Of a DNA stretch of 64,000 nt, positions 9,483 through 14,145 are shown one piece after another (position 1 is the first letter of the stretch; the number at the start of each line of letters is the position of its first letter). This DNA comes from an uncultured Actinomycetes bacterium (GTDB lineage Bacteria > Actinomycetota > Acidimicrobiia > Acidimicrobiales > RAAP-2): the NCBI GenBank assembly GCA_903871335.1, contig CAIQGE010000025.1, positions 1 through 64,000 of the forward strand. Direction: 5' to 3'. A program made the position numbers and the translations under genes. Under the pieces are notes generated by a model. It saw only the letters and a program-made list of their open reading frames with translations, made no database searches and had not been told where the DNA came from.

Positions 9483-9501
9483 TGAAATCTCGAAGATTTC
9501 A
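9483..9501. promoter_or_regulatory. perfect dyad, candidate operator
   Basis: TGAAATCT-CGA-AGATTTCA, an 8-bp perfect inverted repeat with a 3-bp centre. It is AT-richer than its surroundings and lies between two divergent genes, about 37 bp upstream of a TAGCGT hexamer (9538-9543) for the surface-protein gene. It could be an operator or an RNA hairpin. Confidence 0.4.
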
Positions 9502-9533: not shown

Positions 9534-10718
9534 GTGTTAGCGTTCCGGCCGAGGGATTCCTTGGCACACAGACACCGGCGCTTCCGATTGTCGCTGATCG
9601 TTTTTGCGATCGCGACCATGGTCAGCGTGACCTCTTACGCCCTAACGCCAAACCTCTCGTACGCGGCGAGCGGCTACCCGGGACCTGATGCCCTGCCCGG
9701 TGTTCCCACCTACGGCAACGCACTCGGCACCATCACCCCCGGTCACTCTTCTCACTTGACGTGGGTGTGTGGCTTTGACGCTCCTAATGCGACGAACCAC
9801 TCGCCGAAGTACGCGGTGGCGACAATTAACGGAAAAGTGGCGGCGCTACTGCCCATTTCAACCCAGTACGGATGTGCGTCGTTCTACGTGTCGGTTTCCT
9901 CGACAGACGGGCACGGGCATCACGCACCCCCGGGCTATTCGTACGTGTCGGTCAACGGAGGCCCGTGGATTCTGGTCAAGGATGGTCAGAACTGGGTTCT
10001 GGTGACGGGAGTGAAGCACTACCACCACGTAGGTGCCTACTTCGGTTTCTACATCCCGGTGCCCACCCCACCGACGACGACGACGACGACCTCCACCATT
10101 CCGAGCACCACGACACCCAATACGCTGCATCCGACGACTATTCCGGGTCAAACCACGACAACTCGATTGACGCCGCCGTCGACGACGACGCCGGGGTATC
10201 GCACGACGACGTCGCGGTACAACGCCGGTTCGACGTCCACGCGTCCGACGGTTCCCGGCTCGAGTCCCGGCTCCGTCGGCGGAGCACTGAACCAGGTGGT
10301 GACGGTCGTGGCTGTCGTCGTGGCTGCCGGCGCTGCCGCAACGGCTGCGGGCGGACTCGTCGACGGCATCCCTGAAGCACTCGTTGAGGAATATCTCACC
10401 GAGATTCCGCCGGGCGGTGGGTTGCCGTACTCGTTGTTCCCGACGGGCGGCGTCGGCATTGTTGACGACCTCGCCGAAGGCGACGGCATCCTGGGCGTCG
10501 TTGTCGATTCCGAGACACCTCCGGGTGGTGGCCTACCCGTTGGCAGTTCCGCTCCGGGTGGTTCGGACTTCGAAGGTGACGCGGGCGCCGTTGACGTCTT
10601 CGTGGCGGACGACGACGTTCCTGCGGGCGGCGGCATTCCCTTCGGACCCAGTGCCATTTTCTCCGGTGGCATCGACGAGCTCGAAGATGACAATGAATCA
10701 ACGGGAGGAGGTGACTAA
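9534..10718 (+). CDS. Thr/Pro-rich membrane-anchored surface protein with PGGG repeats
   Basis: About 394 residues, no family recognised. Order: a basic then hydrophobic export signal (to about 45), and a folded outer domain to about 175 with two Cys (WVCGF, YGCASF) that could form a disulphide. A Thr/Pro linker with long TTTTTT runs (about 176-250) leads to a membrane segment (VVTVVAVVVAAGAAATAAGG, about 262-282). The acidic C-terminal tail carries three repeats: PPGGGLP near 292, PPGGGLP near 329 and PAGGGIP near 363. Start uncertain: GTG 9534, or TTG 9561, which has a GAGGG Shine-Dalgarno and a TAGCGT hexamer upstream. Its stop is 2 bp from the next start, so the two are coupled. Confidence 0.7.
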   Translation: MLAFRPRDSLAHRHRRFRLSLIVFAIATMVSVTSYALTPNLSYAASGYPGPDALPGVPTYGNALGTITPGHSSHLTWVCGFDAPNATNHSPKYAVATINGKVAALLPISTQYGCASFYVSVSSTDGHGHHAPPGYSYVSVNGGPWILVKDGQNWVLVTGVKHYHHVGAYFGFYIPVPTPPTTTTTTSTIPSTTTPNTLHPTTIPGQTTTTRLTPPSTTTPGYRTTTSRYNAGSTSTRPTVPGSSPGSVGGALNQVVTVVAVVVAAGAAATAAGGLVDGIPEALVEEYLTEIPPGGGLPYSLFPTGGVGIVDDLAEGDGILGVVVDSETPPGGGLPVGSSAPGGSDFEGDAGAVDVFVADDDVPAGGGIPFGPSAIFSGGIDELEDDNESTGGGD

Positions 10719-10720
10719 GC

Positions 10721-13507
10721 GTGGCCATCACTGAATCAATGGAATCCGGTCGCGGACTAGCCATCGCCGAGGATGCCGGAGGTCTTCGCGAGCCTCTTCG
10801 GCGACCCTTTGGTCGCGTGGCTGTTGATGCCTTGACGGAACGAGTGGGCAATCCGCTCCACCGTATTTCTCCCGTCTTTGGAAATGCGTATAACGACGGT
10901 GCTCGTATTCGCGTCATCTTCGGCAACGCCTATTTCGTGTGGCTGGCCGCGGCGGCAGTGCTTGGTGGCTGGGCGGTCCAGAACACTCACGGAATCGCCG
11001 TCCCGCCGGTCCTCTGGTTGACGTTGCTTCTCATGGTGGTCGGTATTTTCGACGCCTTCGCGGGCCTCGTCGCCTCGATCGTCTTTGCGCTCGGCGTGAT
11101 CTTCTCTGGTCACTTCTTCTCGTCACATCTAGTCACAGGCCCTCCGGGGACCCAAGGGATGCTGTACGCCTTCACGGGTCTACTCAGCATGGCGTTCTTG
11201 TGGTTCATCGGACCGCAATTACCACGACGACTCCGGCTCCTCGGTTTCAACGCCATCAAGGACCGCTTCCAGCGTCGCTACATCATCATCGGCGACTTCT
11301 TCGTGGTCACCATCCTGGCGATTTTGATTCTTGGATCGCTGCCCGTTTTTCTTCCCAGCTTCACGGGTGCCGATAAGCAGGACCTCACTCAAGTTGTTCT
11401 CCAAAATCACCTGACGACCGTCAAGATCGTCGTGGCGATCGCGATGATCCTCCGCGTGGCCTACGAGACAATGGTGCACGCCAAGTTCAAGGCGCTTCCG
11501 TCGTCGACGGGTCGCGTTCGCAGTAACGCGGGTCGCTGGTTCATTCGAATCTCCGGCGCTCTCATCGCGCTGGCGCTGATCTGGGAGATTCTCGGGACGG
11601 TGTGGCAGTGGCCGGTGACGTGGTTGATCTTCGTCAGTTTGGATGTCTTCTCCGCGGTCGGTGAGCGCTTCTTACGACCGAGTTCCGTCTTCCGGTTCGT
11701 TCCTCGCAATCTCTTCCGTATCGTGACGCTGCTGCTGTTTGAGCAGTACATGGCACGCGTATTAAACGGTCAATACGTCTCCGGTGAGGCGTTGCTGGGT
11801 TGGCTGGCTCTGACCTTGGCGATCGTGATTGCCATGTACGCCTTCTTTGATGGCGTTGATGATGAGGAATCTGGCGACACTCGCGCCACGTGGTGGACAC
11901 GACTACTGGGCATCATCGTGGTGATCTTGCTCTTCATCATTTCCCAGGGATTGGTCTCGGTTGCCACGACGCCGTACGCCAATCCGACCGACGTCGCCGT
12001 CAGTACCAATGGTGTCTTGTACATCGCGGACTCGGGTAACAATCGCATCATTGAAGTCACCCCGGCGGGCGGGCGCACGACGGTGGGCTCGGGATATTCA
12101 AATCCTGGAGGCGTTGCGCCTGACCCCGGTAGCCCGTCTTTCATTTACGTCGCCGACACCAACAACAATCGCGTGCTCAAAGTGGAGACCACGCCGGTTG
12201 AGGCGCTGGCATTGTCGAACGGCACCAGCCACGTCGCGAACGCGGGAGCGGCGACAACGCAATCGGCGGTCGGCAGCGGATTCAAGCACCCGACCGGACT
12301 CGCCACTGACTCGACGGGACGGCTATTTGTTGCCGACACCGGCAATAACCGCATTGTGGAGATCTTGCCGAATGGCGACGAGAAGGTCTTCGTGACGGGT
12401 CTTTCGTCACCGCTGGCCATTTCGACGGATCCCTTTGGCCACTTGTTCGTCGCCAATACCGGCGCCGGTTCCGTGCTCGAATTTACGATCACCAAGGACG
12501 GGCACGCGACCAAGGAGCGCACGTTCGCGACGGGCCTGCAGAGCCCCTCAGGTGTTGCGGCCGACGCGAATCAAAACGTCTACGTAGCTAATACGGGCAA
12601 AGACCAGGTTCTGCAGTACACCCCCGATCACCAGCGTGACGTCATGGCCGGCGACTATCACTCGCCGCGTGGACTGGGGGTCGACGGCGCGGGTCACTTA
12701 TACGTCGCCGACGCGGGCAGTGGAGGCGTGGTCCTGGCCGCTCCGCTGTACGCCTCAACGAGTTCTGCCGTCGGACCGCACAGTCCCGCGACCGCCGTGT
12801 CTTTGGTGAGCGATGGTTCGAGTTACGTGGTGACGTCGAATAACACCCTCGAGCACGTCACCTCACAGGGCACCACGATTCTCGTCAACAACCTTGATCA
12901 ATCCCACGGGGTCGCGGTCTCGGCGTTGGGACGCATTTACGTGTCGCAGTCCGGAAACGGCACGATTGACCAAGTCCTTCCTGACGGCTCCCTCAAGATT
13001 CTCGCCTCGGGGCTGACGGGGGTCACGTCGATCACGCCGGATCCGTACGGCGGGTTGTTCGCCCTCGAGCCCGTGACCGGCGATATCGTCGCCGTCGATG
13101 CCCAGGGTCGTACTCGCGTCTTGGTCCAACACCTGAAGGATCCCGTCGCTATCACCCAGGACGCCTATGACAACTTGGACGTGACCTTGGCCGGTACCAA
13201 GTCGCACGGTGGTGAGGTCGTGCGCGTCGTATTTGGTGGCAAGACCGAGACGCTGGCGACGGGTCTGAGCGATCCCACGTCCATCACCGCCGACGGTAAC
13301 GGCGACGTTTTCTTCGTCGAGCACGGGACTCGTCGAGTCTGGGAAATCCGTGGACTCCTGGGAACTCAGATTGTCTTTGAGGGCACATCCGCGAAGACCG
13401 ACCCGGTCGCCATCGCTGCTGATCGAAACGGAAATGTTGTCGTGATGCCCGCGGCGGCCGGTGCGACCGTGCGACTGAACTCGTCAAACACGCAGACCAC
13501 GATCTAG
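10721..13507 (+). CDS. polytopic membrane protein with extracellular NHL-repeat propeller
   Basis: 928 residues. Residues about 60-410 hold roughly ten membrane helices in a pattern I do not recognise as a known transporter. From about 415 to the end is a long run of NHL repeats, with marks such as GVLYIADSGNNRIIEVTP, RLFVADTGNNRIVEILPNG, GHLFVANTGAGSVLEF and NVYVANTGKDQVLQY. There are enough units for one large or two beta-propellers, probably outside the cell. NHL propellers generally bind proteins, RNA or glycans or have lyase activity; no catalytic residues are evident. GTG start, 2 bp after the surface-protein stop. The stop shares CTAG with the convergent gene. Confidence 0.75.
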   Translation: MAITESMESGRGLAIAEDAGGLREPLRRPFGRVAVDALTERVGNPLHRISPVFGNAYNDGARIRVIFGNAYFVWLAAAAVLGGWAVQNTHGIAVPPVLWLTLLLMVVGIFDAFAGLVASIVFALGVIFSGHFFSSHLVTGPPGTQGMLYAFTGLLSMAFLWFIGPQLPRRLRLLGFNAIKDRFQRRYIIIGDFFVVTILAILILGSLPVFLPSFTGADKQDLTQVVLQNHLTTVKIVVAIAMILRVAYETMVHAKFKALPSSTGRVRSNAGRWFIRISGALIALALIWEILGTVWQWPVTWLIFVSLDVFSAVGERFLRPSSVFRFVPRNLFRIVTLLLFEQYMARVLNGQYVSGEALLGWLALTLAIVIAMYAFFDGVDDEESGDTRATWWTRLLGIIVVILLFIISQGLVSVATTPYANPTDVAVSTNGVLYIADSGNNRIIEVTPAGGRTTVGSGYSNPGGVAPDPGSPSFIYVADTNNNRVLKVETTPVEALALSNGTSHVANAGAATTQSAVGSGFKHPTGLATDSTGRLFVADTGNNRIVEILPNGDEKVFVTGLSSPLAISTDPFGHLFVANTGAGSVLEFTITKDGHATKERTFATGLQSPSGVAADANQNVYVANTGKDQVLQYTPDHQRDVMAGDYHSPRGLGVDGAGHLYVADAGSGGVVLAAPLYASTSSAVGPHSPATAVSLVSDGSSYVVTSNNTLEHVTSQGTTILVNNLDQSHGVAVSALGRIYVSQSGNGTIDQVLPDGSLKILASGLTGVTSITPDPYGGLFALEPVTGDIVAVDAQGRTRVLVQHLKDPVAITQDAYDNLDVTLAGTKSHGGEVVRVVFGGKTETLATGLSDPTSITADGNGDVFFVEHGTRRVWEIRGLLGTQIVFEGTSAKTDPVAIAADRNGNVVVMPAAAGATVRLNSSNTQTTI

Positions 13508-14145
13508 TTCGAGGGGGGCTCGCTCGCTTCGAGTCGGTGCACATTTTGGATCAAGTCAGCAACGAACGCTTCGCCTTGTCCCTGCCAACGAGCGAGACCG
13601 ATATTCACCCATAGGTCGACGAAACTGACCGCTTTCGGACCGACGTGAATCACGACGTTCTTGACGCGATTGCTGAGGGCGACGGTCAGGGTGCCTTCGG
13701 TCGAGTGTTGGATGCTGACGACGGCCTCGTAGTGGCATTCCTTAGTGGTAGTGGAACCGACGAAGACGATGCGTTGGTCGGTCACGTGAAGATCTCCGTG
13801 GTCAATAGCGGTGGGCGTTGGCGTGCCGGCGACGTAGTGACCACGGGTCTGACCGACGTGATAGCGGATCGTGCGGCCTCCGACCGCTCCGATGGGAATG
13901 GACACGCCGTGCGATCCCGCGCTGTAGTGTCCGCCGACTGATCTCTCCTCGATCAAACTCACGTTCCCGACGGTACCCACGAGAGCTTCGTTGTGGCGCA
14001 GGAGAAGAGAGGCAGACGCGTGCGGGGATTCCACCGCGCGTGCATATTCGAGGGCAGCACGCGCGTCCTCGAGTTCCGCGGCCCATTCGTCGTGGGCGTG
14101 CGAAGCGGCCTTGGCGGCCTGATGTTGACGGAATCTTTCGAACAT
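13504..14145 (-). CDS. hypothetical protein with PH-like C-terminal domain
   Basis: 213 residues, not recognised with confidence. The N-terminus is a charged Ala/Glu-rich helix (AAKAASHAHDEWAAELEDAR) that may coil. The C-terminal half has HGDLHVTDQRIVFVGSTTTK and VSIQHSTEGTLTVALSNR, the strand pattern of GRAM/PH-like or short-PH domains that read a protein's own surface or lipids. Gly/His-rich loops lie between (GGHYSAGSHGVSIPIG). The ATG has a GGAGG Shine-Dalgarno and a TACGCT hexamer 19 nt upstream. The stop shares CTAG with the NHL gene. Confidence 0.65.
   Translation of the reverse strand: MFERFRQHQAAKAASHAHDEWAAELEDARAALEYARAVESPHASASLLLRHNEALVGTVGNVSLIEERSVGGHYSAGSHGVSIPIGAVGGRTIRYHVGQTRGHYVAGTPTPTAIDHGDLHVTDQRIVFVGSTTTKECHYEAVVSIQHSTEGTLTVALSNRVKNVVIHVGPKAVSFVDLWVNIGLARWQGQGEAFVADLIQNVHRLEASEPPSN

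Follow-up and report, generated by a model that had tools for sequence, protein, structure and literature searches.

Do two adjacent genes of an uncultured actinobacterium encode parts of one cell-surface system, and from what kind of protein could such a system have arisen? The question is raised by positions 9,534 to 13,507 of a 64,000-nt stretch, here called the window, from a member of the Acidimicrobiales (GenBank assembly GCA_903871335.1, contig CAIQGE010000025.1, positions 1 to 64,000 of the forward strand). An earlier note on this DNA had described two genes, 2 bp apart, for an anchored protein with PGGG repeats and a protein with ten helices and an NHL propeller, and had been unable to place either in a known system. 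The gene layout and the domains are borne out by the open reading frames (ORFs), sequence features, Pfam, and AlphaFold2: both genes lie on the + strand in the same direction, 2 nt separate them, and each has a GTG start. It also holds that gene 1 and the ten-helix domain of gene 2 both fall outside the known families. We consider it likely that the two proteins form a two-chain cell-surface complex, which descended from a one-chain surface protein. The genes and their parts are:

9534..10718, + strand: gene 1 (ORF, 394 amino acids), a stalked protein with an immunoglobulin (Ig)-like ectodomain, one membrane helix, and an acidic cytoplasmic tail
9534..9668, + strand: signal-peptide-like N-terminus of gene 1 (basic start, then a hydrophobic stretch to near a conserved YPGP motif)
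9669..10091, + strand: ectodomain of gene 1, a predicted Ig-like nine-strand beta sandwich with two invariant Cys (AlphaFold2)
10068..10280, + strand: Thr/Pro-rich stalk of gene 1 (sequence; a T-rich stalk is found in 8 of 8 orthologues)
10287..10349, + strand: TM0, the single Ala/Val-rich membrane helix of gene 1 (KD21 2.14)
10407..10427, + strand: membrane-proximal PPGGGLP motif of gene 1, the only one of three motifs that recurs in relatives
10428..10715, + strand: acidic cytoplasmic tail of gene 1, of low complexity, which contains the other two PGGG motifs at 10518 and 10620 (composition)
10721..13507, + strand: gene 2 (ORF, 928 amino acids), a ten-helix membrane domain followed by an NHL propeller
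10817..11944, + strand: ten-helix membrane platform of gene 2 (36-sequence alignment, AlphaFold2 model, conservation, loop charges)
11966..13504, + strand: NHL-repeat region of gene 2, 513 residues, no Cys, predicted to be extracytoplasmic (Pfam, NCBIfam, repeat scan, topology)

The gene pair and its one-chain relatives

Searched with a profile of its ectodomain, gene 1 is present in 8 of 99 congeneric genomes (one marginal match, with an E value of 9e-4, was left out of the count), and in all eight a gene 2 homologue is the immediate neighbour. The earlier note would have been contradicted by a pair that falls apart in relatives; the pair is intact in every congener that carries gene 1. The 2-nt gap belongs to the window, and the other seven pairs overlap by 1 or 4 nt; in most of these seven, a purine-rich stretch that resembles a ribosome-binding site lies within the 3′ end of gene 1. 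In the window, AGGAGGTGA stands upstream of gene 2. A sister genus of the same family (genome G061) contains a gene 1 homologue that leaves the end of contig C17 within a tail repeat. Contig C61 opens inside the same repeat, completes a frame, and next carries a ten-helix gene without an NHL part. We infer a ninth pair here, across an assembly break in the tail repeat that is not closed in sequence.

Purifying selection acts on both genes. Between the window and its closest relative, G006, the ratios of nonsynonymous to synonymous substitution rates (dN/dS) rise from 0.03 in the ectodomain through 0.09 in the platform and 0.16 in the NHL region to 0.23 in the tail, all of them rough values because dS is above 1. 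A tblastn search of 72,556 plasmids for relatives gave no match, and a literature search yielded no paper that combines NHL repeat, beta-propeller and Acidimicrobiia; a wider search gave one on teneurins.

Outside the pairs, the ten-helix domain nearly always stands at the C-terminal end of a single long chain. It has homologues in 21 of 397 genomes sampled from the order (~5%), in 16 of 296 of the class, and in few members of the phylum outside the order. The one-chain proteins begin with a signal peptide or leading helix, followed by an adhesin-like ectodomain, a stalk, one Ala-rich helix, and, behind a Gly/Ser-rich linker, the ten helices. The hydrophobic helix and the linker precede the platform in 23 of the 23 one-chain relatives examined, and the layout is also found in L219-L221. 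Identified ectodomain parts include fn3, MBG, RCC1, FG-GAP, lactonase/NHL propeller, and choice-of-anchor Q domains. The window genome itself has a one-chain relative on the same contig (C25:98423-101629; L101 6423-9629), with an fn3 ectodomain, ten C-terminal helices, a match to the platform profile with an E value of about 1e-149, and a DoxX-like gene following it. In all, a one-chain copy is present in seven of the eight pair-bearing genomes; the eighth genome is only 65% complete.

Gene 1 supplies to gene 2 what the family layout places before the platform, i.e. signal peptide, ectodomain, stalk, TM0, and Gly-rich linker. When compared with the profile of the one-chain helix, TM0 of the window, G006, G837, G016, and G061 scores better than all 500 shuffled versions, so that the helix is shared by the better-scoring orthologues. 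In a maximum-likelihood tree with 36 rows (midpoint-rooted, for drawing only), the NHL-bearing pair members form one clade (100/100), which is sister to the NHL-less platform of G061 (99/95) and lies apart from the one-chain forms. A better explanation of the pair than that given in the earlier note is that genes 1 and 2 together represent a one-chain protein split at the cytoplasmic linker. The simplest order of events would be that the split at the linker came first and that the C-terminal propeller was gained later, within the genus; the direction from one chain to two is suggested because the one-chain form is widely spread.

Alternatively, the pair could be surface proteins with separate functions whose only link is a common operon, a view with which the poorly conserved tail of gene 1 agrees. 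The strict pairing in 8 of 8 genomes, the coupled reading frames, and the one-chain counterparts make this quite improbable.

Several other arrangements of the family were seen. Stand-alone platform copies with no visible partner occur in G061 and G843; those on contig C39 of G061 (L154 830-2329 and 2495-3937) lie in tandem, have no ectodomain, and start with a long basic Ala/Arg/Gly segment. In G1044 (C1:59878-60996) and G1036 (C9, L220), the open frames that end in the ten-helix domain are 6930 and 3783 residues long, i.e. very large surface proteins. Three congeners (L104, L105, L197) have a second secreted gene, which overlaps the last part of the one-chain gene and encodes 2040 amino acids where complete; in L197 it contains many fn3-like units.

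The ten-helix platform and its predicted topology

The AlphaFold2 model of the gene 2 membrane domain has ten membrane helices, with a mean predicted local distance difference test (pLDDT) value of 84 and a predicted template modelling (pTM) score of 0.84. The predicted helices 1 to 5 cover residues 61-88, 98-128 (with a kink at D111), 147-170, 182-215, and 226-255, and helices 6 to 10 cover residues 269-291, 296-317, 331-349, 355-377, and 391-408. In the 36-sequence alignment D111, R172, D192, G292, P328, and G397 are invariant, and R245 is found in 34 of 36 sequences. Gene 2 of the window has the features of the family, i.e. the ten-helix domain with G68, D111, R172, D192, G292, P328, and G397.

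The earlier note had allowed for the membrane domain belonging to a known family that has a different partner, and no family match was found. Pfam gave no match, with E values of up to 1 considered for gene 2 and none above the cut-off for the relatives, and NCBIfam gave no match either. Among the sequences of solved structures, only STING was retrieved (E values of 0.07-0.3 over 73 residues), a relationship that we reject as a chance match. A Foldseek search of the Protein Data Bank with the model gave a best E value of 0.21, and none below 0.2. With VIA-align, residues 65-259 (helices 1-5) gave five best rows that are all S-components of energy-coupling factor (ECF) transporters, with Z scores of 6.4-7.1 over 140-152 residues, which is below the tool's guidance for helical bundles; the remaining rows reach 4.6 or less.

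These S-component rows, together with the conserved charged residues, of which D111, D192, and R245 fall inside predicted membrane helices, raise the question of whether the domain is an active membrane machine (a transporter, an ion-coupled or a signal-transducing protein) with the Ig-like domain and the NHL region as outside ligand-binding arms. We regard this as unlikely. In addition to the low Z scores and the Foldseek result, neither Pfam nor NCBIfam gave a transport-family match, no conserved neighbour clearly indicates transport, and the highly varied adhesin-like ectodomains suit a display platform better. Were the domain nevertheless such an unrecognised machine, for which the chances seem equally low, it might couple exchangeable outside binding domains to transport or signalling via the intramembrane Asp/Asp/Arg residues, and the pair would be its two-subunit, two-sensor version.

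To predict the orientation of the platform, the mean numbers of Lys plus Arg were calculated for the 36 sequences. The values are 4.1 before helix 1 and 4.1, 3.4, 4.0, and 3.2 for loops 3-4, 5-6, 7-8, and 9-10, respectively. For loops 1-2, 2-3, 4-5, 6-7, and 8-9 and for the C-terminus, they are 0.1, 0.0, 0.4, 0.2, 0.9, and 0.3. The predicted helices and these charges fit a platform with the N-terminus inside and the C-terminus outside, provided that helix 2 does not fully cross the membrane. A form with the N-terminus inside and all helices crossing is disfavoured, because four Lys/Arg-rich loops would face outside. An alternative form with the N-terminus outside and ten crossings would likewise place the C-terminus outside. 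As the C-terminus is predicted outside in both forms, the NHL part would lie outside the cell, like the ectodomain propellers of the one-chain proteins.

Outer domains, cytoplasmic tail, and flanks

The ectodomain model of gene 1, in which the two Cys are C79 and C114, has a mean pLDDT of 87 and a pTM of 0.81. The top VIA-align rows are nearly all Ig folds, with a best Z score of 6.8, which is under the tool's significance guidance, and the best Foldseek E value is 0.019. The label Ig-like refers to the predicted strand arrangement and is not a family assignment; no relative of gene 1 was found among the sequences of solved structures. The view of the earlier note that gene 1 is anchored and lies mostly outside the cell is supported.

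The NHL region matches Pfam NHL (PF01436) with an E value of 4e-30 (102.8 bits, cut-off 20), and the repeat scan found seven clear repeats and space for about twelve. It also matches NCBIfam ScyD/ScyE (NF033206, a family of scytonemin biosynthesis; 115.6 bits, cut-off 80), again with the NHL part only. NCBIfam would name gene 2 ScyD/ScyE because of this part alone and would thereby hide the membrane domain. A scan of genome contigs gave a single true orthologue, L021, which is the contig that G006 also contains, and the other hits match the NHL part only. A defence system was rejected: gene 1 had no match in a search for such systems, only the NHL region matched PD-T4-6 (E 1e-11), and the one further match, to a 2TM effector, was weak.

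The gene 1 tail has 25 Asp/Glu and no Lys/Arg over its final 119 residues. Three P[PA]GGG[LI]P motifs, which lie 37 and 34 residues apart at 292, 329, and 363, are real and exceed the expectation, as 20,000 shuffled tails never had more than one match. The orthologues keep only the membrane-proximal motif, as PPGGGLP or PTGGG. The rest of their tails comprises 100-400 residues of low complexity rich in Ser, Gly, Pro, and Ala; some are acidic and have GGG, some hold dozens of SGGG or TGGG, and some none. The tail evolves rapidly and differs in length between orthologues. The earlier note had suggested that the repeats dock on the membrane part or scaffold copies; we reject this role, because only the first motif recurs in orthologues and the other two are not conserved. 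The tail has the character of a flexible linker or of a tether in the cytoplasm.

Upstream of gene 1 lies a further feature:

9483..9501, no strand: perfect dyad TGAAATCTCGAAGATTTCA, function unproven (sequence)

As noted earlier, the dyad is perfect, and it is present in a single copy in the genome when up to 2 mismatches are allowed; its occurrence by chance in the window would be rare. It is missing 5′ of gene 1 in G006, and with one copy in the genome it was rejected as a conserved operator. The promoter-like hexamer ascribed to the pair could not be confirmed, as a sigma-70-type scan gave no match. A ScyD/ScyE protein would be expected in a scyABC-type cluster; the flanks of gene 2, read by eye, contain DUF6069, a 213-amino-acid ORF, an oxidoreductase, and a major facilitator superfamily (MFS) protein. 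The oxidoreductase and MFS genes are found downstream of the pair in all pair loci with enough flank, and in the window and G006 one extra small gene separates them from the pair. In the window, the 213-amino-acid ORF (13504-14145, - strand), which has no Pfam match, lies between the pair and the oxidoreductase gene; a similar gene is found there in G006, and none in the remaining pair loci that were read.

The proposed complex and known systems

In the two-chain complex that we favour, the gene 1 chain would begin with a signal peptide and carry a small Ig-like domain, raised on the Thr/Pro stalk above a single membrane helix; its tail in the cytoplasm would be flexible. The ten-helix platform, with the N-terminus inside and the C-terminus outside, and the NHL propeller region on its outer end would come from gene 2. 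The two chains would be made from adjacent or overlapping frames and would associate via TM0 and the juxtamembrane linker of gene 1, as is to be expected from the relatives, in which one covalent chain runs from these segments into the platform. The assembly would display two outside arms, the Ig-like domain and the propeller, which most likely bind an external partner or an envelope polymer.

Several points weigh against this proposal. The tail varies in length and composition and so marks out no defined contact between the chains. TM0 of G110, G847, G013, and G814 does not clearly exceed the shuffles, because the segment is now nearly pure Ala/Ser. The topology requires that helix 2 is re-entrant or crosses only half of the membrane. 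Lastly, the invariant D111 and D192 (36 of 36 sequences) and the near-invariant R245 should exceed the needs of a passive anchor.

The pair points to a lineage-restricted membrane domain, which is found neither in Pfam or NCBIfam nor among solved structures and which spans many families of one actinobacterial order. This domain carries diverse surface domains (fn3, MBG, RCC1, pectin-lyase-like, propellers), in proteins of up to several thousand residues. The split pair reveals the point at which the chain can be divided, as well as the ability of the outer end to take a second domain, and it offers a testable assembly model and a route to annotate surface proteins that could otherwise not be placed.

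LPXTG/sortase, PEP-CTERM/exosortase, and GlyGly-CTERM/rhombosortase systems (PMC3237569) serve the same need, i.e. varied ectodomains are held at the membrane. Gene 2 might be an enzyme dedicated to gene 1, which it would process or sort in the manner of a rhombosortase or exosortase: one small anchored target lies beside a multi-helix protein, a Gly-containing motif is next to the membrane helix, and dedicated enzymes often lie next to their targets (PMC3237569). The membrane helices of rhombosortases and rhomboid proteases hold an active-site Ser and an active-site His, both invariant (PMC3237569). The helices of the 36 homologues have no conserved His and no near-invariant Ser, and S50 precedes helix 1. 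Exosortases carry a catalytic Cys; there is none in gene 2, and none is conserved in the ten-helix family. By the residues tested, the platform appears to be neither of the rhomboid nor of the exosortase type. In GlyGly-CTERM proteins, the Gly motif lies before the helix and basic residues are found at the C-terminus (PMC3237569). Gene 1 was rejected as such a protein, as its Gly motif follows the helix and its C-terminus is acidic. Moreover, target and platform are one chain in the relatives, so that a processing enzyme is largely refuted and highly improbable. In contrast to the sorting-signal systems, the anchor here would be the ten-helix domain, attached covalently or pairwise, with no recognisable protease or transpeptidase.

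The ECF S-components weakly resemble platform helices 1-5, but they have no sequence match, have six helices instead of ten, and differ from the ectodomain-bearing proteins described here. NHL-repeat and ScyD/ScyE proteins share only the propeller, which in gene 2 follows the ten-helix domain and is paired with gene 1. The closest comparison is with the one-chain actinobacterial proteins, which have in common with the pair the platform, the preceding membrane helix, the Gly-rich linker, the signal peptide, and an ectodomain; they differ in being a single chain, in having no C-terminal NHL region, and in their other and usually larger ectodomains.

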